Shown here: piece by piece, positions 25,519 through 37,789 of the stretch
How the letters are laid out: each line of letters starts with the position of its first letter
Numbering within the stretch: position 1 is the first letter of the stretch
Source: Micromonospora nigra
Lineage (GTDB): Bacteria; Actinomycetota; Actinomycetes; Mycobacteriales; Micromonosporaceae
Assembly (NCBI RefSeq): GCF_900091585.1
Contig: NZ_FMHT01000003.1
Location: 372,001 to 436,000 of the forward strand
Reading direction: 5' to 3'
DNA length: 64,000 nt
Translations under genes and position numbers: made by a program
Notes under the pieces: model-generated
Databases searched by the model: none
Told to the model about the DNA's origin: nothing
Seen by the model: the letters and a program-made list of their open reading frames with translations, nothing else

Positions 25519-26745
25519 GTGGGGTGGGCGGGGCGGCTGTTCGACGTGCGGGACACGCTCGTGCGGATCCTGCTGCTCGACCTCACCGGCGTGGGTTATC
25601 TGCTCTTCGGTACGCCGGCCGGTCACCCGCCGACGGTCCCGCAGTGGATTCTCGCGGTGGTCGCGTTCGCGGTCGCGTTGGCGTTGCACCGCCGGCCTCT
25701 GGCCAACCTGGCGGGACAGACCGCGCTGCTGGCGGTCGCGATCGTCGTCGTCGACGACACCACGATCCACCAGGTGGGTGCCGGCTGGGCGTTGGTGGAA
25801 CTGACGGTGTGGGCCCGTCGGCCTCGGGTCATCTGGCTGGCGGCCGGGGCGCTGGCCACGGTCGCCCTGTCCGACTCGATCGGCGTGACGGTGCGGCAGT
25901 TCGCCGTCGGTGTGCTCGGGCTGGCGGTGCAGGTCGGTCTTCCGTTGCTGCTCGGCATGGTCATCCGCACGACCCGGGAGCTGAGCCGACAGGCTGAGCA
26001 GCGGGCCAGGGAGGAGCAGCGGCGACGTGAGTCCGACCACCGGGCCGCCCGTGCCGACGAACGCAGCGCCATCGCCCGTGAGCTGCACGACGTGGTCGCG
26101 CATCACGTGGCGTCGATGGTGCTGCGGGTCGGGGTGACCCGGCACGTGATCACGGACGTGGACCCACGCGTGGGCCAGGTGTTCGACGACGTGCACAGCA
26201 CGGGAACGGCGGCGTTGGCGGATCTGCGCCGGCTGGTGGCGGTGCTGCGCGACCCCGACGCGGTGCGCGGTGAGGCGACGCTGACCGCGATAGAGCCGTC
26301 GGCGGTGCCGGCGGCACTGGGTGCGGCGGTCGACCGGGCCCGCCAGGCCGGTGTCACCGTGGAGGCCGACGTCGACGCGGGGGTCGGTTCACTGGACGCC
26401 GTACGGGGCCTGGCGGTGCTGCGGCTGACCCAGGAGGCGCTGACCAACGTGGTGAAGCACGCCGGCCCGGCCGCGTTGGCGCGGTTGTCGGTGTCGGTGG
26501 TCGACGGGGCGGTGCACTGGGAGGTCACGGACAACGGGCGGGGTTCGGTGCCGGCACCGGTGCCGCCCGGCGGCGGTCACGGCATCACCGGCATGCGTGA
26601 GCGCGTCGATCTGCTCGGGGGCCGGTTGGAGGTGGGGCCGGCCGGTGCCGGTTGGCGGGTCGCCACGGTCCTACCGGCCGGGTCCGCCGGTCCGTCGCGT
26701 TATCGCGGAACGGCGACCGGGCCCCCCGCGTCGGAGGTGGCATGA
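25519..26745 (+). CDS. NarL-type sensor histidine kinase
   Basis: 408 aa. An N-terminal membrane part (about four to five helices, residues 15-150) is followed by a coiled linker and a HisKA_3 dimerisation helix with phospho-acceptor His190 in IARELHDVVAHHV. The HATPase domain has TQEALTNVVKHA (N box), VTDNGRG and GHGITGMRERV. The signal sensed is unknown. Its stop overlaps the ATG of the response regulator (ATGA). A TAGGCT -10 box suggests a leaderless transcript. Confidence 0.9.
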   Translation: MGWAGRLFDVRDTLVRILLLDLTGVGYLLFGTPAGHPPTVPQWILAVVAFAVALALHRRPLANLAGQTALLAVAIVVVDDTTIHQVGAGWALVELTVWARRPRVIWLAAGALATVALSDSIGVTVRQFAVGVLGLAVQVGLPLLLGMVIRTTRELSRQAEQRAREEQRRRESDHRAARADERSAIARELHDVVAHHVASMVLRVGVTRHVITDVDPRVGQVFDDVHSTGTAALADLRRLVAVLRDPDAVRGEATLTAIEPSAVPAALGAAVDRARQAGVTVEADVDAGVGSLDAVRGLAVLRLTQEALTNVVKHAGPAALARLSVSVVDGAVHWEVTDNGRGSVPAPVPPGGGHGITGMRERVDLLGGRLEVGPAGAGWRVATVLPAGSAGPSRYRGTATGPPASEVA

Positions 26746-27368
26746 TCCGCGTCCTGCTGGTCGACGACCAGCATCTCATCCGCGCGGGCCTGCGGATGCT
26801 CTGCGACGCTCAGCCGGACATCGAGGTCGTCGGCGAGGCCGACAACGGCCGCGAGGCCGTCTTGCTGGCAGCGCGACTCGTCCCCGACGTCGTCGTGATG
26901 GACCTGCGGATGCCCGGCGTCGACGGGATCACCGCGACCAGCCGGATCCTCGCCGATCGTCCCGCCACCCGGATCCTCGTGCTGACCACCTTCGGCGACG
27001 ACGACCACCTCTATCCGGCGTTGACCGCCGGGGCCTGCGGGTTCCTGCTCAAGGACGCCCCGCCCGCCGACCTGGTCGACGGGGTCCGCCGGGCCGCCGC
27101 CGGGGACAGTCCGTTCAGCCAGCAGGTGCTGCAACGGCTGGTCCACCGCGCCGTGCACGCCCGGCCCGAAACGCCACGGCCCGCCCCGGGTCTGACGGCC
27201 CGTGAGCAGGACGTGCTGCACCTGGTGGCCGAGGGATTGTCCAACACGGAGATCGCCGATCGGCTCCACATCGGGGTCACCACCGTCAAGACCCACATCA
27301 CCAGCCTGATGACCAAGACCAACAGCCCCAACCGGGTACGCCTGGCCCTGTTCGCCCGCGAAGCCTGA
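26742..27368 (+). CDS. LuxR/NarL-family response regulator
   Basis: 208 aa from ATG 26742, the 4-nt overlap start; longer frames run into the kinase gene. The receiver domain has IRVLLVDDQHLIRAGL, phospho-acceptor Asp54 in VVVMDLRMPG, and Lys in FLLKDAPP. The C-terminal LuxR helix-turn-helix (about 142-205) has LTAREQDVLHLVAEGLSN and GVTTVKTHITSLM. It is the partner of the kinase before it; targets are unknown. Confidence 0.92.
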   Translation: MIRVLLVDDQHLIRAGLRMLCDAQPDIEVVGEADNGREAVLLAARLVPDVVVMDLRMPGVDGITATSRILADRPATRILVLTTFGDDDHLYPALTAGACGFLLKDAPPADLVDGVRRAAAGDSPFSQQVLQRLVHRAVHARPETPRPAPGLTAREQDVLHLVAEGLSNTEIADRLHIGVTTVKTHITSLMTKTNSPNRVRLALFAREA

Positions 27369-27552: not shown

Positions 27553-28485
27553 GTGATCCATTCGCACGCGTCGTCGTTCGCCGGGTTACCGGTGTTGCCC
27601 TTCACACCGGGCATGACACTGCCGGAGGATCCGTCCGCCGTGGCGTGGCGGCTGGAGGTCGAGAACTCCGAGGCGGGGCCGAAGGAGTTCACCGGCCTGG
27701 TCCGGGCGATGCTCGACGAGGTGCCGCACGAGTCGGTGCGAGCCGTGGTGGTGGGTGAATGGGGCGAGGCCTACGACCGCACGCTGCCGGTCGACCTGCT
27801 GGTCGACGCGGCACGACGGTGGCCGCACCTCCGGGCGGTCTTCCTCGCCGACCTGCTCAGCGAGCAGTGCGAGATCTCGTGGTTGAGCCACGACGACGTG
27901 ACTCCGCTGCTGGCGGCGTGCCCGGCGTTGGAGGTGTTGTGGATCCGCGGCGCCGACGGCCTGGAGTTGACTCCGGTGCGCCACACCGGGCTGCGGGAAC
28001 TGCGTATCGAGTCCGGTGGCCTGCCGGGCGAGGTGGTGCGCGCGGTCGGGGCGTGTGATCTGCCGCAGCTGCGGCGGCTCGACCTGTGGCTGGGCTGTGA
28101 GGACTACTACGGTGACAGCACGGTGCAGGATCTCGCCACCATCCTGGCCGGCAGCAACCTGCCGGCGCTGCGGCACCTGGCGCTGTGCAACGCGGAGAAC
28201 GCCGACGCGGTCACCGCGGCGGTGGCCAGCGCCCCGGTCGTCGGCCGGCTGGAGGTCCTCGACCTGTCGATGGGGGTGCTCACCGACGAGGGCGGCGCGG
28301 CGCTGCTGGCCGGTCAGCCGCTGACTCACCTGCGCCGCCTGGACCTGCACCATCACTACCTGTCCGAGGAGACGGCCGCGGCGGTGGTCGCCGCGCTGCC
28401 GGGCGTGCAGGTCGACGTGTCCGACCCGCAGGAACCCGAGGACTACGACGGCACGATCTACCGCTACACCGCGGTCGGGGAGTGA
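27553..28485 (+). CDS. STM4015-family leucine-rich-repeat-like protein
   Basis: 310 aa, GTG 27553 with GGAGG 5 nt upstream. The second half is a run of imperfect LRR-like units (LRELRIESGGLPGE, LRRLDLWLGCEDYY, LRHLALCN, LEVLDLSMGVLTDEGG, LRRLDLHHHYLS), preceded by a conserved-looking FAGLPVLPF start. I recognise it as the STM4015 type by its place next to STM4014, STM4013, STM4012 and STM4011 homologues in matching order. Function unknown; a scaffold or substrate-recognition role is a guess. Confidence 0.85.
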   Translation: MIHSHASSFAGLPVLPFTPGMTLPEDPSAVAWRLEVENSEAGPKEFTGLVRAMLDEVPHESVRAVVVGEWGEAYDRTLPVDLLVDAARRWPHLRAVFLADLLSEQCEISWLSHDDVTPLLAACPALEVLWIRGADGLELTPVRHTGLRELRIESGGLPGEVVRAVGACDLPQLRRLDLWLGCEDYYGDSTVQDLATILAGSNLPALRHLALCNAENADAVTAAVASAPVVGRLEVLDLSMGVLTDEGGAALLAGQPLTHLRRLDLHHHYLSEETAAAVVAALPGVQVDVSDPQEPEDYDGTIYRYTAVGE

Positions 28486-28491
28486 ACAGGG

Positions 28492-28578
28492 ATGGCGTTG
28501 CCCTTCCGGGTCCGGGTGTCCGACGGCCGGCCGGCCGTCGGGGTTGCGGGGCCGGTCCACCCGGCGGTGTCGGCGTGA
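28492..28578 (+). CDS. Possible 28-aa peptide ORF between STM4015 and STM4014 genes
   Basis: ATG 28492 to TGA 28576-28578, ending 1 nt before the STM4014 ATG. Sequence begins MALPFRVRVSDGRP and ends VHPAVSA. Only a weak purine stretch (AACAGGG) precedes it. The position, filling the only real gap in an otherwise overlapping operon with two radical SAM enzymes and an ATP-grasp protein, makes a small substrate or coupling peptide conceivable. It could equally be chance. Confidence 0.3.
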   Translation: MALPFRVRVSDGRPAVGVAGPVHPAVSA

Positions 28579-28579
28579 C

Positions 28580-29719
28580 ATGCGACTGACGGTGGTCGGT
28601 AACGCCGGTCGTCGCCGGGTGGAGATGTTCACCCGGGCGGCGCTGGCCGCAGGTCTGCCCCGGCCCGAGGTGCTGCCCTGGGTCGACGTGCTGACCGGGG
28701 CCGCGCCGCCACCGGCCGGGGCGTTGGTGCGGGTGGACTCCCCCGGTCAGGATCCGCAGGTCGACCAGTTGCTGCGCCGGTCGGCCACCGCCACCCGGCC
28801 GGGCGAGTTGGTCGGCCTGGCCGACGCGTACGCCGGTCTGGTCGACGGCATGGCGCGGGTGGCGGCAGGTGGCGCGGAACTGCTCAACCAGCCCGACGAC
28901 GTCGCGGTGCTGTGTGACAAGCGGCGCTGTCACGCCGTGTTGTCGGCGGCCGGGCTGCCGGTGCCGGCCGCGTTGCCACCGGTCCGTGGGTACGCCGAAC
29001 TCCGGGCGGAGATGGCGGCGGCCGGCTGGACGAGGGTGTTCGTGAAGCCGGCGCACGGGTCGTCCGCGGCCGGGGTGATCGCACTTGCGGTCGGGTCCCC
29101 ACGTGCGGCGGGCCGACCCGGGCGGCACCGCTGCGGCCGGGTGCACGCGGTCACCACGATCGAGCACACCCCGCAGGCGCTGTTCAACTCCCTCCGGTTG
29201 CGTCGTTACACCGACGAGTCGCAGGTCGCCGCGATCGTCGACCGGCTCGCCCCGGACGGTCTGCACGTCGAACGATGGCTGCCCAAAGCCGGGCTGGGTG
29301 ACCGGGTGGTGGACGTGCGGGTGCTGGTGGTCGCGGGGCGGCCCACGCACGCGGTGGTCCGCGCCGCCCGGGGGCCACTGACCAACCTGCATCTGGGAAA
29401 CGCGCGTGGTGATCTCGCCGAGTTGCGGGCGGCGGCCGGGGTACGCGCCTGGTCGGCGGCGATGGAGGCGTGTGAGCGGGTCGGGGCGTGCTTTCCCGGG
29501 TCGCTGCACGTCGGGGTCGACCTGATGTTCCTGGTCGGTTGGCGTCGGCACGCCGTGGCCGAGGTCAACGCGTTCGGTGACCTGCTGCCCGGGGTGCTCC
29601 ATGACGGGCGGGACAGCTACGCCGAGCAGGTGCACGCACTGACCAGTGGTCGGTGGCAGCGGTGGCGGGCGTCCGTCGGGGCGGCCTCGGGCGGGGAGCA
29701 GGTCGCGTGCGCAGCCTGA
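28580..29719 (+). CDS. STM4014-family ATP-grasp-like protein
   Basis: 379 aa from ATG 28580 (MRLTVVGNAGRR); a TTG-started longer frame is less likely. ATP-grasp elements: CDKRRCHAVLSAAGLPVPA, VFVKPAHGSSAAGV (nucleotide lysine), RVLVVAGRPTHAVVR and a metal-site DLMFLVG...AVAEVNAFGDLLPG near the C-terminus. Such enzymes ligate carboxylates to amines. Its 3' end overlaps the hydrolase start by 13 nt. Substrate unknown. Confidence 0.85.
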   Translation: MRLTVVGNAGRRRVEMFTRAALAAGLPRPEVLPWVDVLTGAAPPPAGALVRVDSPGQDPQVDQLLRRSATATRPGELVGLADAYAGLVDGMARVAAGGAELLNQPDDVAVLCDKRRCHAVLSAAGLPVPAALPPVRGYAELRAEMAAAGWTRVFVKPAHGSSAAGVIALAVGSPRAAGRPGRHRCGRVHAVTTIEHTPQALFNSLRLRRYTDESQVAAIVDRLAPDGLHVERWLPKAGLGDRVVDVRVLVVAGRPTHAVVRAARGPLTNLHLGNARGDLAELRAAAGVRAWSAAMEACERVGACFPGSLHVGVDLMFLVGWRRHAVAEVNAFGDLLPGVLHDGRDSYAEQVHALTSGRWQRWRASVGAASGGEQVACAA

Positions 29720-30510
29720 TCGGTAGCCACGACCTGCTGCTGGTCACCCTCGACACGTTGCGATACGACGTGGCCGCGGAGGTGGCGGCGGCGGGGGGCA
29801 CCCCGCAGTTGGCGCGGGCGCTGCCGGGTGGACGGTGGGAACGACGCCACTCCCCCGCCAGCTTCACCTACGCCGCGCACCACGCCTTCTTCGCCGGTTT
29901 CCTGCCCACGCCGGTGCGGCCGGGCCACCACGAGCGGCTGTTCTCGGCGGCGTTCCCGGGCAGTGCGACCTCCGGGGCCGACACGTGGGTGTTCGACGCC
30001 CCGGACCTGCCGACCGCCCTCGCCGAGGTCGGCTACCACACGCTCTGCCTGGGTGGAGTGGGGTTCTTCAACCGGTGCAGCCCGCTGGGGGCGGTGCTGC
30101 CGGGCATGTTCGCCGAGGCGCACTGGGAGCCGGAGTTCGGCGTCACCTCCCCCACCTGCCTGGACGCGCAGCTCGACCGGCTGGCCGAGGTGCTGCCCCG
30201 GGTGCCGGCGGCGCAGCCGCTGTTCACCTTCCTCAACGTCGCCGCGCTGCACCAACCCAACCGGCACCACCTGCCCGGCGCGCAGACCGACAGCCGGGCC
30301 AGTCACGCCGCCGCGCTGCGGTACGTCGACGGGCGCATCGGTCGGCTGTTCGCCCTGGTCACCGGCCGGGGGCGGCCGGTGTTCACCATCATCTGCTCCG
30401 ACCACGGCACCGCCTACGGCGAGGATGGCCACACCGGCCACCGCATCGGCCACGACGTGGTGTGGACCGTCCCGTACGCCCACTTCGTCCTGTCTCCGGG
30501 GGAATGGTGA
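29707..30510 (+). CDS. STM4013/SEN3800-family alkaline-phosphatase-fold hydrolase
   Basis: 267 aa from GTG 29707. It looks like a compact sulfatase/phosphodiesterase of the alkaline phosphatase superfamily: LLLVTLDTLRYDV carries the first metal Asp and nucleophile Thr, and ICSDHGTAYGEDGHTGHRIG near the C-terminus carries metal Asp/His residues. There is no signal peptide, so it acts in the cytoplasm. The substrate is unknown; hydrolysis of a phospho- or sulfo-ester intermediate made by its operon partners is an inference. Confidence 0.85.
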   Translation: MRSLIGSHDLLLVTLDTLRYDVAAEVAAAGGTPQLARALPGGRWERRHSPASFTYAAHHAFFAGFLPTPVRPGHHERLFSAAFPGSATSGADTWVFDAPDLPTALAEVGYHTLCLGGVGFFNRCSPLGAVLPGMFAEAHWEPEFGVTSPTCLDAQLDRLAEVLPRVPAAQPLFTFLNVAALHQPNRHHLPGAQTDSRASHAAALRYVDGRIGRLFALVTGRGRPVFTIICSDHGTAYGEDGHTGHRIGHDVVWTVPYAHFVLSPGEW

Positions 30511-31832
30511 CCAGCACCGAGGCGAGCCTCGACGGCTCCCCGTACCAGCAGTACCTGTACGCGTACCCGCACAAGACGTCCTACCGGCCGCTGCGGCCCC
30601 GCCCGTCGCTGGCCGAGGTGTGGCGGGCCGAACCACGCGAGGCGTTGTTCCTCTACCTGCACGTGCCGTTCTGCGAGATGCGGTGCGGCTTCTGCAACCT
30701 GTTCACCCGCGCCCACGCCCCACAGGAGCAGGTGACCGCGTACCTGCGGCAGCTGCGCCGGCAGGCCGAACAGGTCGCCGACGCCCTCGGCGGCGACGCG
30801 GGATACGCCCGTGCCGCGTTCGGTGGCGGCACCCCGACGTACCTGACCGCCGGGGAGCTGACCGAGCTGTTCGACATCGCCACCGGCACGGTCGGCGCGC
30901 GGCTGCCGGGCGTACCCCTGTCGGTGGAGACCTCACCGGCCACCGCCACGCCGGACCGGCTCGCGGTGCTCGCCGCGCACGGTACGACGCGGGTGAGCAT
31001 CGGCGTGCAGAGCTTCCTGGACGTCGAGGCCCGTGCCGCCGGCCGGCCACAGCGTTGCACGGAGGTGGAGACGGCGCTGGCTGCGATCCGGCAGGCCCGC
31101 ATCCCGGTGCTCAACATCGACCTGATCTACGGCATCGACGGGCAGAACGCCGGCACCTGGCAGGAGAGCCTGGACGCGGCACTGGCCTGGCAGCCCGAGG
31201 AGCTGTACCTGTACCCGCTGTACGTGCGGCCGCTGACGGGGCTCGGCCGGCGCGCCCACGACCGGGCCGACTGGGACGCCCAACGGTTGGCCCTCTACCG
31301 GCAGGCCGTGGAGACCCTCGGCGCGGCCGGGTACCGGCAGGAGTCGATGCGCCAGTTCCGCCGCCGCGACGTGCCGGTGCCCGACGGCCCGGACTACTGC
31401 TGCCAGGACGACGGCATGGTCGGCCTCGGGTGCGGTGCGCGTTCCTACACCACCGGCCTGCACTACTCGTTCGACTACGCGGTCAGCGTCTCCCAGGTGC
31501 GGGCGGTCCTCGACGACTACCTGGCCCGACCCGCCGACGACTTCCGGTACGCCGAGGTCGGGTTCCACCTCGACGATGCCGAGCAGCGCCGCCGCTGGCT
31601 GCTCACGTCGCTGCTGCGGGTCGACGGGGTGGACGCCGACGCCTACCGGGCACGGTTCGGGTGCCCGCCGACCGACGACTTCCCGCAGCTCGGTCGGCTC
31701 GTCGAGCGCGGCTGGGCCACCAACGGTGGGCTGCGGCTGACGGCTGCGGGGCTGGCCCGGTCAGACGCCATCGGCCCGTGGTTGACCTCCGCGCAGATCC
31801 GCGCCGCGATGACCGGGTTCGTGCTGCGGTGA
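30504..31832 (+). CDS. STM4012-family radical SAM protein (HemN-like)
   Basis: 442 aa from ATG 30504, overlapping the hydrolase by 7 nt. The [4Fe-4S] motif is C57-x3-C61-x2-C64 in HVPFCEMRCGFCNLF, followed by FGGGTPTYLT, VSIGVQSF and IDLIYGIDGQ as in the HemN/coproporphyrinogen dehydrogenase-like group. A C-terminal winged-helix-like part (about 360-442) follows. Despite the HemN resemblance, the genomic setting argues against haem synthesis. Expected chemistry: radical modification of an unknown substrate. Confidence 0.9.
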   Translation: MVTSTEASLDGSPYQQYLYAYPHKTSYRPLRPRPSLAEVWRAEPREALFLYLHVPFCEMRCGFCNLFTRAHAPQEQVTAYLRQLRRQAEQVADALGGDAGYARAAFGGGTPTYLTAGELTELFDIATGTVGARLPGVPLSVETSPATATPDRLAVLAAHGTTRVSIGVQSFLDVEARAAGRPQRCTEVETALAAIRQARIPVLNIDLIYGIDGQNAGTWQESLDAALAWQPEELYLYPLYVRPLTGLGRRAHDRADWDAQRLALYRQAVETLGAAGYRQESMRQFRRRDVPVPDGPDYCCQDDGMVGLGCGARSYTTGLHYSFDYAVSVSQVRAVLDDYLARPADDFRYAEVGFHLDDAEQRRRWLLTSLLRVDGVDADAYRARFGCPPTDDFPQLGRLVERGWATNGGLRLTAAGLARSDAIGPWLTSAQIRAAMTGFVLR

Positions 31833-32686
31833 ACCTGACCGTCCTCTACCGCGGGCCGCTCGCCAGCTGCAACTACGACTGCCCGTACTGTCCCTTCGCG
31901 AAGCGGCACGACCCGCCGGAGCTGCTGCGCGCGGACCGGGCCGCGTTGACCCGGTTCACCGGCTGGGTGGCGGCGACCACCGACGTGCGGCTGTCGGTGC
32001 TGTTCACCCCGTGGGGCGAGGGGCTGACCCGCAGTTGGTACCGGGAGGCGATGGTGACGCTGTCCCACCTGCCGCACGTGGAACGGGTGGTCATCCAGAC
32101 CAATCTCGCCGCCCGCGTCGACTGGCTGGCCGACGCCGACCCCCGGTCCGCTGCCCTGTGGACGACCTTCCATCCGGGGCAGATCGACCGGCAACAGTTC
32201 CTGCGCCGCTGCGCCCGTCTGGGCGAGTTGGGCGTCCGCTACTCCGTCGGGGTGGTCGGCCTGCCGGAACACCTCGACGAGGCGCGGGCGCTGCGCGCCG
32301 CGCTCCCGGAGGACGTCTACCTGTGGGTGAACGCCGCCGACGGCCGCCGCTACGACGCCGCCGAGGAGGCCACCTGGACCGGGTTGGACCCGCACTTCGG
32401 TTACAGCGTCCGTCCACACCTGTCGCTCGATCGTCCCTGCCATGCCGGGGAGAGCGCCATCTCCGTGCTCGGCGACGGCACCGTTCGGCGCTGCCACTTC
32501 ATCCCCACCCCCATCGGCAACCTGTACGACGGATCGTGGCGGGCCGCGTTGCGGCCCCGGCTGTGCAGCAACGCGATCTGCGACTGCCACATCGGTTACG
32601 TCCACCTCAAACCACTCGGCCTTCGGGACGTCTTCGCCGGTGGGGTCCTGGAACGCGTTCCTGCCGCCTGGCCGCTGCCGCGCTGA
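31829..32686 (+). CDS. STM4011-family radical SAM protein
   Basis: 285 aa, GTG 31829 overlapping the STM4012 stop. The radical SAM cluster is C14-x3-C18-x2-C21 in SCNYDCPYCPFAKR, very near the N-terminus. The C-terminal 60 residues hold at least five more Cys (RPCHAGE, RRCHFIP, LCSNAICDCHIGYVH), suggesting an auxiliary iron-sulfur cluster of SPASM/twitch kind. It ends the operon. Target unknown. Confidence 0.9.
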   Translation: MNLTVLYRGPLASCNYDCPYCPFAKRHDPPELLRADRAALTRFTGWVAATTDVRLSVLFTPWGEGLTRSWYREAMVTLSHLPHVERVVIQTNLAARVDWLADADPRSAALWTTFHPGQIDRQQFLRRCARLGELGVRYSVGVVGLPEHLDEARALRAALPEDVYLWVNAADGRRYDAAEEATWTGLDPHFGYSVRPHLSLDRPCHAGESAISVLGDGTVRRCHFIPTPIGNLYDGSWRAALRPRLCSNAICDCHIGYVHLKPLGLRDVFAGGVLERVPAAWPLPR

Positions 32687-33579: not shown

Positions 33580-36132
33580 TCAGGCGGCCAGCGCGGCGGC
33601 GAGTCGGCGGGCCTCGGTGACCAGCCGGCTCGCGCCGCCTCGCGCCACCAGGTCGGCCAGTCCCGGCACCTCGATGCGTACCCCGGTCGCGCCGGCCGTC
33701 TCGGCGGCCAGGGTGAGCAGGTCGGGTGTGCCGCGGGGCGGGGTCGGGGCGGTCAGCAGCGGCGGCAGGGCGGCGGCGAGCAGCCGCCAGACACTCAGCG
33801 GAGCACCGGCCGTGACCGCGTCGCGCAGCGGCACCGCCACCCGGCTCAGGGTCACCTGGCCGTCGGCGGCGAGTGCGCCCAGGTGCCCGCCGATGCCCGG
33901 GGCGTCGAGGTCGCCGGCGGCCGCCAGTGCCAGCAGCGCGTCGAGGGCGGCGGCGCGGTCCACCTCGTGCCGGGCACCCAGCCCGTACGCCAGAGCCAGG
34001 TCGAGCGCCGGACCGCCGTCGCCGGTGCACTCGGCGAACGTCGTCAGGACGGTGGCGGTCCCCCGCGCGTCCTCCTGCGCGGCCCTGGCGATCTCGGGCA
34101 GGAGGTGGGCGGCGGCCAGGCCACGGTGCCCCGGCAGCAGCGCTGGCCACAGGTGCTGCCAGCGGCTGCGTACCTCTCCGCTGCGGTGTGCCGGCACGGT
34201 GAGCAGCCCGAGGGGATCCGCCACGCCGTCGGGCGGAGTGCTGGCGACGATGGTGCGCCGCACCGGCAGACGGTCGTAGCCGAAGTCGTAGCTGCCCCTC
34301 CGTTCCCGTCGGTCGACCGTGATTATGCGGTAGACCGGGGTCGGCAGGGTGTCCCCGCGCAGCCAGTCGGCCAGTTCCCGCCCGGCCGGGGTGCCGAGCG
34401 CCGCGGCGCGGGCCGCGAGTGGCCCGTCGACGCCGGCCGGCAGTCGCAGCAGCGCCTGGGTGAGGTCCCATCGCCAGACCGGCCGGTCACCGAGGGCCGC
34501 GAGCCGTTCGTAGAGCGCGGTCGGGTCGATGGCCCCGGTGGTGGAGGTGGGCACCGCCAGGAGCCCCGGGTCCTGCCGTCCGGCCAACCGCTGGCCGATC
34601 TCGGCGAGGCGGGCGCAGTACAGCAGCGTGAGGGCGGACTGCTGGGGTGGGTTGGCGGCCGGCCGGTTCCGGAACGGGCGCAGCGCCCAGGCGGACGATG
34701 CGTTGAGGATCTCGGACCACTGGGCGCGTCGGGTGGCGGCCTCGGCCGGTGCGGCGGCGGCCAGCAGGACGCCGTGCAGCTGGATCGGCACGTTGAACAC
34801 CGCCCACAGGCGGTCGCTGGCGCCGACCCGTTCGCGTCGCAGTACCGGCAGCAGTGCGGCCGCCAGCCGGTCCCGGTCGGTGGTGGTCAGCCGGACCAGC
34901 CCGTCGAGGACCCGTTCCACGGCCTGCGCGGGCCACAGGTGGCCGAGCAGCCCGGCGACCTCCTCGACGAGTTCGTCCACCTCCGTGATCGGTGGTGGCG
35001 CGGGCGCGGGCGACACCGGTGGTGGGAGTTCGTCACCAGCCACCGTCACGGTGACCGGGGCGGCCGGACGGTGACCGTGCCGCTGCGCCAGCGTCGTCGC
35101 CCGGTCCCGCAGATCGGCGGCCGGGTGCTCGGCACCGACCGCGAGCACCTCGGCGATCTTCCCCGCGTGCACGGGGTGCTGCCCGGCGAGCCGGTCCAGC
35201 CACGACAGTTGCGCCCGCACGAGGGCCTTCTCCGGCCGGCCGAGCACGACCTGCGCGGCGTCGAGCAGCGATTCGAGTTCCGCGCCACCGTCGGAGTCCC
35301 GCAGCGTCCGCTGGGCCAGGGCGGCCACCGGCCCCGGCGCGTCGGCGAGCAGCCGCAGGTACGCGTCGACCCGGGCCGCCACCTCGCCGGGGGTGGGTTC
35401 GAGGTGGTCGTGCAGGGCGAGGAACGGACGCAGCGCGGCCGGTCGGTCGCCGCGCAGCAGCCGACCGACGACCCCGTCGAGCAACGCCGCCCGGTCGAGG
35501 CGCCCCTCCGCGGCCAGCGTGGCCAACGCCCGGGGCACCGACGTGTCGTCGCCGTCGAACGGCAGCTCGGTGCCGACGCCGTCGACCTCGAACAGGCGGG
35601 GCAGCAGCGCGTCCAGGAACGGGTCGGCGCGGAGGCGGTCGACCAGGGGCGGCGGAGGCTGCCGCCGGTTGTGGGGTGGTTGCCACGACATCGCGTACGC
35701 CCAGCCGACGACGAACGCGTCCCCGGTCGGCGGTGCCGCCTTCTCCGCCATCAACATCCCGGCCGTGAAGTGCCAGTTCGCCCACGGTTCGTTGCGGCGC
35801 AGCCGCTCGGCCAGCCGGTAGCCCAGGTCGGCCAGCCAGGTCACGCCGCGTTGACGGGCGACGGCGATCACCGAATCGACGTCGACGTTCCGTAGCATGA
35901 CGGTTCGCCGGCCGAGCAGCGTCGCGACCTTCGTCGCGGTGCTCAGCGTGCCCACGGCGGCCACCGCCAGGGCCGTCGCCTCCGGTGTCCGCCACCAGAT
36001 GACCTGCTGATGCCTCACATGGTCGACCAGTTCGTCGCCGAGCCTGCGTCGGGCCGGTTCGTCGAGCGTGGCCAGCAGCGCCTCGACGGCGGCGACGTCG
36101 CCGCGAACCAGGGACTCTCGGAAAGCGGTCAC
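33580..36132 (-). CDS. DUF6493-family protein
   Basis: 850 aa from GTG 36132, which overlaps the upstream stop (GTGTGA). Almost wholly alpha-helical, with HEAT/ARM-like helix pairs, Ala/Leu/Arg-rich; no catalytic motif recognised. The N-terminal FRESLVRGDVAAVEALLATLDEPARRR opening and the coupling to a SWIM zinc-finger gene match an actinobacterial DUF6493/SWIM pair that I know only as conserved neighbours. A scaffold acting with the SWIM protein is inferred. Confidence 0.75.
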   Translation of the reverse strand: MTAFRESLVRGDVAAVEALLATLDEPARRRLGDELVDHVRHQQVIWWRTPEATALAVAAVGTLSTATKVATLLGRRTVMLRNVDVDSVIAVARQRGVTWLADLGYRLAERLRRNEPWANWHFTAGMLMAEKAAPPTGDAFVVGWAYAMSWQPPHNRRQPPPPLVDRLRADPFLDALLPRLFEVDGVGTELPFDGDDTSVPRALATLAAEGRLDRAALLDGVVGRLLRGDRPAALRPFLALHDHLEPTPGEVAARVDAYLRLLADAPGPVAALAQRTLRDSDGGAELESLLDAAQVVLGRPEKALVRAQLSWLDRLAGQHPVHAGKIAEVLAVGAEHPAADLRDRATTLAQRHGHRPAAPVTVTVAGDELPPPVSPAPAPPPITEVDELVEEVAGLLGHLWPAQAVERVLDGLVRLTTTDRDRLAAALLPVLRRERVGASDRLWAVFNVPIQLHGVLLAAAAPAEAATRRAQWSEILNASSAWALRPFRNRPAANPPQQSALTLLYCARLAEIGQRLAGRQDPGLLAVPTSTTGAIDPTALYERLAALGDRPVWRWDLTQALLRLPAGVDGPLAARAAALGTPAGRELADWLRGDTLPTPVYRIITVDRRERRGSYDFGYDRLPVRRTIVASTPPDGVADPLGLLTVPAHRSGEVRSRWQHLWPALLPGHRGLAAAHLLPEIARAAQEDARGTATVLTTFAECTGDGGPALDLALAYGLGARHEVDRAAALDALLALAAAGDLDAPGIGGHLGALAADGQVTLSRVAVPLRDAVTAGAPLSVWRLLAAALPPLLTAPTPPRGTPDLLTLAAETAGATGVRIEVPGLADLVARGGASRLVTEARRLAAALAA

Positions 36133-37454
36133 ACCCCCACCTCCGCCGCCGCCATGGATGCCGCGAGGGCGTGCCTGCAGGGTCCGCGTTGCCCCTGGTG
36201 TCGTGCCCACCACCGGCAGGTGCAGGTGCGGCTCCCGTCGGGCAGCCGGCGTACGCGATAGTCCCCGTCGCCGCCGCGTACCGTGGCATGCTCGCCGTCC
36301 CGGCGGACCGCGCCCTGCTCCACCAGCGCCCGTGCGCCGACCAGGCGGGGATTGTCCCGCTCGGCCCGCCCCGCGTCGTAGGGCATCACCCGGTGGAAGT
36401 ACGCGCCCTCGGCGACGTCGTAGCCGACCCTCCCGGCGGTGCCGAGCTGCGCGAGGGCGGCGCGAACGCGGTCGTCGGGCAGGCCCGCCGCGTCGGCCAG
36501 CGCGGCGACGTCGATCGTCGGCTCCCAGGACAGCAGTGCACCGACCAGCTGCGCGTCGTCGATCACCTCGTCACCGGCGAGCGCGAGCAGAGCGGCCCCC
36601 TCGCCGGAGAACCCCCGGTACGGCTCCGGTGAGAGCGTCAGCGACAGTCGCAGTGCCCCGGTGTCCAGCTCCCACGTGCTCGCCACGGCCGGTGCGCCGG
36701 CGCGCACCGCCGGACCGTACACGCGCAGGGTGTGTGCGTGGCGGAGCAGCCCGCGCAGTGCGGTGAGGCGCCCCGCGCCGGCCAGGCAGACCGCGCCCGG
36801 CGTCGGCCTCGAGGTCAGCCGGAGGGTACGCCCGGCGGGCACCGCCCACAGCACGGAGCGGTCATTGGAGGGCAGCCGCCGCAGGAACGCGGTCGCCTCG
36901 GCGGCGGGGATCTCGGCGCGCGGTTCGAACCCGGCGGTGAGGACGTGCACCTCGGCGAAACCACGCAGCCAACGCCCGGGGAGCGGCACCTTCCGCTCCA
37001 CCACCGTGTCGTCCATGGTGGAGACGGTGAGGTCGTCCGGGCCGACGGCCAGGTGCAGCGGGTCGATCCCACCCACCCGGGCGAGTGCTTCGCGCAGCGG
37101 CGGGTTGACGTCGACGTTGGTGGTGCCGTGGCCGACGATCTCGCCGTCGAAGCCGGCCGGGACCACGTCCATCCGGGCGTACACCCCGCAGCAGCCGGAG
37201 AACGACTCGAAGCGCAGCCGGTCCTGGCTGCCGGTGACCACCGGGTCGAGGCTGGCGGGGCTGACCGGCTGGTGGTAGCGGGTGCGGGCCACCTCGGCCA
37301 CCGCGAGCAGGCCGGCGGCCGCCGCGGCGGGGGTGGTGAGGAACCCGGAGCAGAACCGCGGGTTTGCCGCCGGCCCGCCGCAGGTCTGCAGATCGAGACC
37401 GGTGTCGCGCAGGGCGGACGGCTGGAGGTATCGGTAGGTCTGGACGACGTTCAC
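36129..37454 (-). CDS. SWIM zinc-finger protein
   Basis: 441 aa from GTG 37454 (start VNVVQTYRYLQPSAL); an upstream ATG-like start at 37484 is possible. The SWIM motif CxCx(n)CxH is at the extreme C-terminus: CTCRWWARHQGQRGPCRH. The preceding 380 residues hold no named domain but include a likely winged-helix stretch (VAALADAAGLPDDRVRAAL). SWIM fingers bind DNA or protein. Coupled to DUF6493, so the pair probably forms a complex. Confidence 0.85.
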   Translation of the reverse strand: MNVVQTYRYLQPSALRDTGLDLQTCGGPAANPRFCSGFLTTPAAAAAGLLAVAEVARTRYHQPVSPASLDPVVTGSQDRLRFESFSGCCGVYARMDVVPAGFDGEIVGHGTTNVDVNPPLREALARVGGIDPLHLAVGPDDLTVSTMDDTVVERKVPLPGRWLRGFAEVHVLTAGFEPRAEIPAAEATAFLRRLPSNDRSVLWAVPAGRTLRLTSRPTPGAVCLAGAGRLTALRGLLRHAHTLRVYGPAVRAGAPAVASTWELDTGALRLSLTLSPEPYRGFSGEGAALLALAGDEVIDDAQLVGALLSWEPTIDVAALADAAGLPDDRVRAALAQLGTAGRVGYDVAEGAYFHRVMPYDAGRAERDNPRLVGARALVEQGAVRRDGEHATVRGGDGDYRVRRLPDGSRTCTCRWWARHQGQRGPCRHALAASMAAAEVGV

Positions 37455-37479
37455 GGCGCACACCGTAGAACGACCGACC

Positions 37480-37789
37480 GACATCCTCCCGATCAGCAGC
37501 GACGCAGGCTGGCAGCAGCTGTTCGCGGCGGCATCGGCAGGCGGCGCCTACAGCTCCGGCGAACTCGGAGCGTACGGGAGGCTCCTGGCCTGGCGTACGG
37601 TCAGCGGGCTCACCGGTGCCGCGCACGTGCGTCCGCCGCTGACGTCGAGGCGCTGGCCCAGCGGTGTTCGTGGTACTCCTTCGCGGGCGCGAGCGACTGG
37701 TTCGACCGCGTCGCGTGGGACATCGGCCTGGCGGTGGTATCACCGGACGGCGGCACCTCGCCGTGCTGGCCGCCACCGACACCGACTGA
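37480..37789 (+). pseudogene. Frameshifted C-terminal remnant of a DUF6183-like protein
   Basis: Three plus-strand frames in succession give one coherent protein tail: DAGWQQLFAAASAGGAYSSG and LGAYGRLLAWRTVSGLTGAA, then ADVEALAQRCSWYSFAGA and DWFDRVAWDIGLAVVSPDG, then RHLAVLAATDTD and TGA at 37787. From memory this resembles the DUF6183 C-terminus; the assignment is tentative. At least two frameshifts and the missing N-terminus mean that it is dead. The rest of 37455-38000 shows nothing else. Confidence 0.55.

Follow-up and report, generated by a model that had tools for sequence, protein, structure and literature searches.

A leucine-rich-repeat protein ending in glutamate looks like the substrate of the STM4011-STM4015 enzymes

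On which molecule do the enzymes of the STM4011-STM4015 gene set act? We examined a copy of this set in Micromonospora nigra, in a stretch of 64,000 nucleotides of its 6.4-Mb genome (NCBI RefSeq assembly GCF_900091585.1, contig NZ_FMHT01000003.1, positions 372,001 to 436,000), here called the window. A preliminary description, made from the letters of this stretch, had proposed a five-gene STM4015-STM4011 set with an ATP-grasp protein and two radical S-adenosylmethionine (SAM) proteins. All five window proteins pass the curated cut-offs of the corresponding NCBIfam families, the ATP-grasp protein matches the STM4014 family, and both radical SAM proteins match theirs and carry CX3CX2C, so this part of the description is borne out. 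Start codons were picked from the listed reading frames. The features are the following.

27553..28485, + strand: STM4015, leucine-rich-repeat (LRR) protein, 310 amino acids (aa); NF038076, 362 bits, cut-off 275
28417..28461, + strand: acidic linker of STM4015, residues 289-303, with net negative charge in relatives
28462..28482, + strand: C-terminal tail of STM4015, R-Y-T-A-V-G-E, residues 304-310, with Glu310 as the proposed modification site
28580..29719, + strand: STM4014, LysX/ArgX/RimK-like ATP-grasp ligase, 379 aa; NF038074, 414 bits, cut-off 175
29707..30510, + strand: STM4013, alkaline-phosphatase-superfamily enzyme with Thr at the nucleophile position, 267 aa; NF038075, 404 bits, cut-off 250
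30504..31832, + strand: STM4012, HemN-like radical SAM protein, 442 aa; NF006067/PRK08208, 615 bits, cut-off 380
30672-30695, + strand: CX3CX2C motif of STM4012
31829..32686, + strand: STM4011, radical SAM protein with a C-terminal Cys cluster, 285 aa; NF038073, 394 bits, cut-off 200
31868-31891, + strand: CX3CX2C motif of STM4011
within 32438-32587, + strand: five further invariant Cys of STM4011

The coding sequences overlap at STM4014/STM4013, STM4013/STM4012 and STM4012/STM4011. The gap between STM4015 and STM4014 is 94 bp in the window, 1 bp in six of seven further copies from the same genus and 42 bp in the seventh (L010). The NCBIfam descriptions of the five families carry no function, and in the accessible parts of the literature the locus names occur within gene tables of two papers. 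We found no paper on the function of these families or of DUF6745, no prior report of a C-terminal Glu in STM4015 and no paper joining an LRR protein, an ATP-grasp enzyme and a precursor peptide, in a search that left most subscription journals outside.

We collected loci by scanning species genomes with an STM4013 alignment, which returned at least 576 relatives; the best 80 of those, seven plasmid loci and the window make up 88 loci, and divergent sets are under-sampled because only the best 80 were taken. The four enzymes are nearly always single-copy in these loci. Of the 75 loci holding STM4015 at E<1e-40, 50 have a single copy and 25 are multi-copy: 14 with two copies, 6 with three, 3 with four, 1 with five and 1 with six. 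Several copies of STM4015 beside single enzymes is the pattern of a substrate. The preliminary description took STM4015 as a mere member of the set and missed this role: copy number and a near-invariant C-terminal Glu together point to STM4015 as the molecule that is modified.

The terminal residue was Glu in all 20 STM4015 proteins of a first comparison and in 116 of the 119 copies at E<1e-40. Four of 123 matches, with higher E values, were left out of this count; one of them, cut at a contig end, ends in Glu, and three, out of frame or partial, do not. The three non-Glu copies all lie in multi-copy loci, and the single-copy loci are 50/50 Glu. The tail mostly reads R-[YF]-x-[AS]-[VIL]-[SGAT]-E and follows an acidic stretch: among the Glu-ending copies, residues -21 to -7 are net negative in 108 of 116, position -5 is Tyr or Phe in 106, and position -1 is Ser in 49, Gly in 32, Ala in 18 and Thr in 9. 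Glu-ending proteins number 0/78, 1/87, 0/79 and 2/78 in the four enzyme families and 32/534 among flanking genes. A Shine-Dalgarno origin of the terminal Glu was ruled out by the use of both codons (GAG 66, GAA 50) and by loci with intergenic gaps. In 13 loci outside profile building, STM4015 again ended in Glu in 20 of 20 cases, including one truncated copy of 205 aa; 9 of these tails were new and 11 already present in the first comparison.

The tail also occurs away from the operon. In genomes with dispersed relatives, nine STM4015 relatives at E<1e-40 lie on contigs that lack STM4014 (L185-L192 and L194, most in Myxococcales bins), and all nine retain it. Five of them (L188-L191, L194) are 6 kb or more from either contig end and the other four nearer an end; we regard the nine as candidate trans substrates. 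Two weaker relatives end in RYDGVME and FRFVATME. The spaced motif appears in none of eight weak LRR matches from the comparison set, two of which end in Glu, one as RYVRE. When the tail pattern was searched in 41 genomes, 10 of the 13 matches fell at STM4015 genes and 3 elsewhere, against 9 matches for the reversed pattern used as a control. With a looser pattern, 20 genomes gave 50 matches (control, 30). Of the 30 looser matches inspected, 19 frames were STM4015-like; no tail on a non-LRR protein was found among the rest, which were not stops, were frames of at most 60 aa, or were L205 and L218, long frames whose GC content by codon position is of the wrong-frame type.

A caution applies to the tail: taken overall, it does not exceed the LRR body in conservation. 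Four STM4015 columns are invariant, namely the terminal Glu and three Leu. The body itself gives LRR Pfam matches barely above the cut-off. Non-framework residues such as D100, W110, R132, W179 and Y185 are kept, and the body thus looks conserved rather than diversified. By its copy numbers and its terminal Glu, STM4015 looks like a substrate or carrier, not an enzyme; to our knowledge this is a new proposal, judged here from sequence comparison.

What, then, would be attached to the tail? In a profile search with STM4014, LysX was the first match. The structure model is confident (predicted local distance difference test score, pLDDT, 94.4), and the structures nearest to it are LysX, ArgX with LysW, and RimK. 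Residues D314, E328 and N330 are invariant in 62 of 62 sequences, although with six plasmid rows added E328 is kept at only 90% or more; we take these conserved residues to correspond to ATP-grasp metal ligands. By closest fold, sequence kin and retained ligands STM4014 falls in the LysX/ArgX/RimK group. LysX and ArgX link an amine to the Glu with which a carrier protein ends, and the kinship of STM4014 with them is therefore independent support for the charging of a Glu. Ligation by STM4014 to the STM4015 tail seems likely on these grounds.

A carboxylate-activating ligase beside a terminal Glu could also suggest that STM4015 is a modifier resembling Pup or ubiquitin, which STM4014 would join to a target Lys as in pupylation, with the other enzymes serving a separate branch; several, sometimes dispersed LRR bodies would fit different targets. 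We consider this very improbable. STM4014 is closest to ligases that use free amino acids, the constant linkage to two radical SAM enzymes would go unexplained, and many non-framework LRR positions are conserved instead of diversified.

The third Foldseek match of the STM4014 model was PsnB, a graspetide ligase, which is absent among the 50 matches listed in a second structure comparison, an absence that excludes nothing. This match bears on a scheme like that of ribosomally synthesized and post-translationally modified peptides (RiPPs), in which the tail would be a core peptide and STM4014 or STM4011 would form an intramolecular bond within R-Y-x-A-V-x-E, either a graspetide-like ester or amide or a PQQ-type radical C-C link, with no outside amine. 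The Tyr or Phe at -5 would suit such a bond, and the structural neighbours of STM4011 include SkfB, SuiB and PqqE. The tail, however, has no invariant Ser, Thr or Lys partner, as the mix of residues at -1 illustrates, and no known RiPP leader resembles an LRR protein roughly 300 residues long. We hold this scheme to be unlikely.

STM4012 has a HemN-like sequence and C57, C61 and C64 of CX3CX2C are invariant in 46 of 46 sequences, which places it among HemN-like radical SAM proteins. The nearest solved structures are HemN (1olt) and the methyltransferase NocN (9p2u); the NocN match is taken as kinship only, and class C methyl transfer with two SAM stays a candidate reaction. The PADLOC defence models gave two weak matches only, to STM4012 alone. 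In STM4011, C14, C18, C21, C204, C222, C246, C251 and C253 are invariant in 57 of 57 sequences, that is, CX3CX2C and five further Cys, as in SPASM/twitch-type proteins. The SPASM-like C-terminal cluster read by the preliminary description thus stands, with a SkfB sequence match (E 0.004) confined to this Cys region. The STM4011 model (pLDDT 94.2) is nearest to BlsE and then SkfB.

BlsE belongs to blasticidin S biosynthesis, and this best match is in keeping with a different role for the tail, as a signal for docking or degradation. The Glu would then be bound, unmodified, by the enzymes or by a protease, and STM4015 would scaffold an enzyme complex whose substrate is a free small molecule. The conserved LRR body likewise suggests a fixed partner. 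This role would not account for a partner ligase of the type that modifies C-terminal Glu, for one to six STM4015 copies per ligase or for tail-bearing copies off the operon. Such a signal strikes us as quite improbable.

STM4013 matches the Sulfatase Pfam family. Residues D16, T54, D232 and H233 are invariant in 56 of 56 sequences, presumably as metal and nucleophile residues; in an alignment with choline sulfatase Thr54 falls on the Cys of that enzyme, and the Arg of CxPxR is replaced by His58. Since the formylglycine Cys position of CxPxR is an invariant Thr, STM4013 is not a sulfatase; it fits the alkaline-phosphatase superfamily as a predicted phosphoesterase fold with a Thr nucleophile. 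The alkaline-phosphatase-fold hydrolase of the preliminary description is therefore right in fold and sharpened by the Thr where sulfatases have Cys. In 10 of the 88 loci a HAD-type protein lies directly upstream of STM4013, and an adenosine 5'-phosphosulfate (APS) kinase lies beside or near the set in five others, in two fused to ATP sulfurylase. These neighbours may reflect phosphate or sulfate-nucleotide chemistry in the vicinity of STM4013, without identifying which, and the APS kinases are a possible clue to its reaction. The APS kinase genes are the following.

L086:10974-11501
L083:2975-3601
L067:1371-3038
L098:602-2284
L076:5373-5888

We think it rather probable that the five genes specify a modification pathway tethered to a scaffold, in which STM4014 charges the C-terminal Glu of STM4015 and the other three enzymes process the adduct. 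STM4015 would be the LRR scaffold, its C terminus formed by an acidic arm followed by R-[YF]-x-A-V-x-Glu-COOH. On this terminal Glu STM4014 would phosphorylate a carboxyl group and couple an amine to it, probably an amino acid. The conserved LRR body and acidic arm would present the adduct to STM4012, STM4011 and STM4013; HemN-like STM4012 and twitch/SPASM-like STM4011 would rework it by radical chemistry, and STM4013 would add, move or remove a phosphate-type group. The finished group may either be released, in the style of the LysW pathway, or be retained on the LRR protein. The genes, their co-occurrence, the copy-number pattern, the conserved tail and the kinship of the ligase are observed; the ligation, the identity of the amine, the order and chemistry of the later steps, the end product and its release are parts that we infer. 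In a more tentative variant, which we consider rather unlikely, the group built on the Glu by the ligase and the radical SAM enzymes would be a permanent prosthetic group of a widespread LRR class; one enzyme set would equip several LRR proteins, including those off the operon, and a binding module would gain a ready-made reactive or redox group.

The tethered pathway has precedents. In the LysW/LysX and ArgW/ArgX systems, too, the carrier has a C-terminal Glu and an acidic tail region, and the ligase belongs to the same ATP-grasp group as STM4014, nearest by both sequence profile and fold. LysW, in contrast, is a small zinc-binding Cys protein with EDWGE, whereas STM4015 is a 310-aa LRR protein with R-Y-T-A-V-G-E, present in one to six copies, some off the operon, unlike the LysW carrier. 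Lacking the zinc Cys domain and EDWGE, STM4015 is not a LysW, though it may work alike. The downstream enzymes are a kinase, a reductase, an aminotransferase and a peptidase in LysW systems, and radical SAM and alkaline-phosphatase-fold proteins here; no peptidase was recognized among the five window proteins in NCBIfam and Pfam searches. RimK acts on ribosomal protein S6, and the proposed target of STM4014 is an LRR family with further enzymes linked to it. Pearlin (PEARL) pathways, for example that of 3-thiahomoleucine, follow the same logic of building on a carrier C terminus with a radical SAM enzyme, but they use aminoacyl-tRNA, a peptide carrier and a cluster-encoded protease, unlike the STM4011-STM4015 set (PMC9303977).

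The substrate role of STM4015 and its tail are proposed here as new for five families previously named without function. If STM4015 is the substrate, carrier-protein biosynthesis would extend from small zinc proteins to LRR scaffolds and be joined to radical SAM chemistry, in a set that reaches from Salmonella to cyanobacteria, planctomycetes and actinomycetes. The question would narrow to one residue, and the tail would be a simple search handle for further substrates.

How firmly do the genes belong together? The order 15-14-13-12-11 on one strand, given by the preliminary description, was seen in 39 of the 88 loci and in 55 when additional STM4015 copies are allowed. Some of the remaining loci are cut at contig ends, some are without certain genes, and some have STM4015 and STM4014 as a separate unit; where the order is broken, these two often form one block and STM4013, STM4012 and STM4011 another. 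Eleven genomes with a locus missing STM4014 or STM4015 were checked (plasmid locus L043 and cut locus L095, also missing one, were outside this check). Eight hold both genes, with an STM4015 match that passes the curated cut-off in two and stays below it in six (E 1e-53 or better). The remaining three hold neither gene; they are bins, two of Chloroflexi type and one of KSB3, in which STM4013 stands alone. When the window's genome and 40 relatives were searched whole at curated cut-offs, STM4012 being left out, STM4013, STM4015, STM4014 and STM4011 were found in the same 10 of 41 genomes, as the claimed co-occurrence predicts. Linkage and co-occurrence of the set far exceed chance.

In a phylum-wide sample, STM4013 was above the cut-off in 6 of 296 genomes. 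No near DNA match to the set was found in E. coli. The suggestion that the set is portable holds in part. Its six window flanking genes (the two-component pair, GNAT, SWIM and others) were sought as parts of the system and were not found beside the set in 13 stretches, each 8-15 kb long, from other genomes (E<1e-30), but the tree of STM4012 keeps close to phylum (12 changes against a minimum of 8), and the four rows nearest to the window's STM4012 are Micromonosporaceae. On the same tree the record labelled Comamonas sp. KCTC 72670 (L101) falls inside Myxococcus on a branch of 0.036, by transfer or because the record is mislabelled.

The preliminary description suggested a search for a sixth conserved gene or peptide. 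In 32 of 88 loci (L041, L042, L044, L045 and 28 others, identical for both proteins) the fetched stretch contains a pair made up of a DUF6745 LRR protein and a protein of about 105 aa that has GHxH and HEEH-type motifs. The pair was rejected as an essential sixth part, since DUF6745 was not found in the window's genome and, among the 41 genomes, occurs in seven without the set and one with it; as tail bearers the DUF6745 proteins were rejected too (Glu-ending, 0/32). A 28-aa reading frame at 28492-28578, in the STM4015-STM4014 gap, is not conserved in the genus and was dismissed as a peptide substrate: there is no space for it in six of the seven genus copies, and the seventh has 42 bp. Nine WD40 or HEAT-like proteins lie in four cyanobacterial loci (L069, L085, L096, L116), and most have in common an N-terminal stretch that contains D-A-V-L-G-G and V-L-G-G; none of the nine bears the tail.

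A histidine kinase and response regulator pair (window 25519-27368) lies directly upstream of STM4015; relatives of the regulator were seen in seven loci besides the window (mostly from Actinomadura) and relatives of the kinase in five, several kb from the set. An 877-aa protein without a Pfam or NCBIfam match (window 33580-37484, - strand) adjoins the SWIM zinc-finger protein. A lone STM4013 on a Streptomyces albidoflavus plasmid (L043:5968-7889) adjoins a NUDIX protein and a lasso peptide B2 protein.

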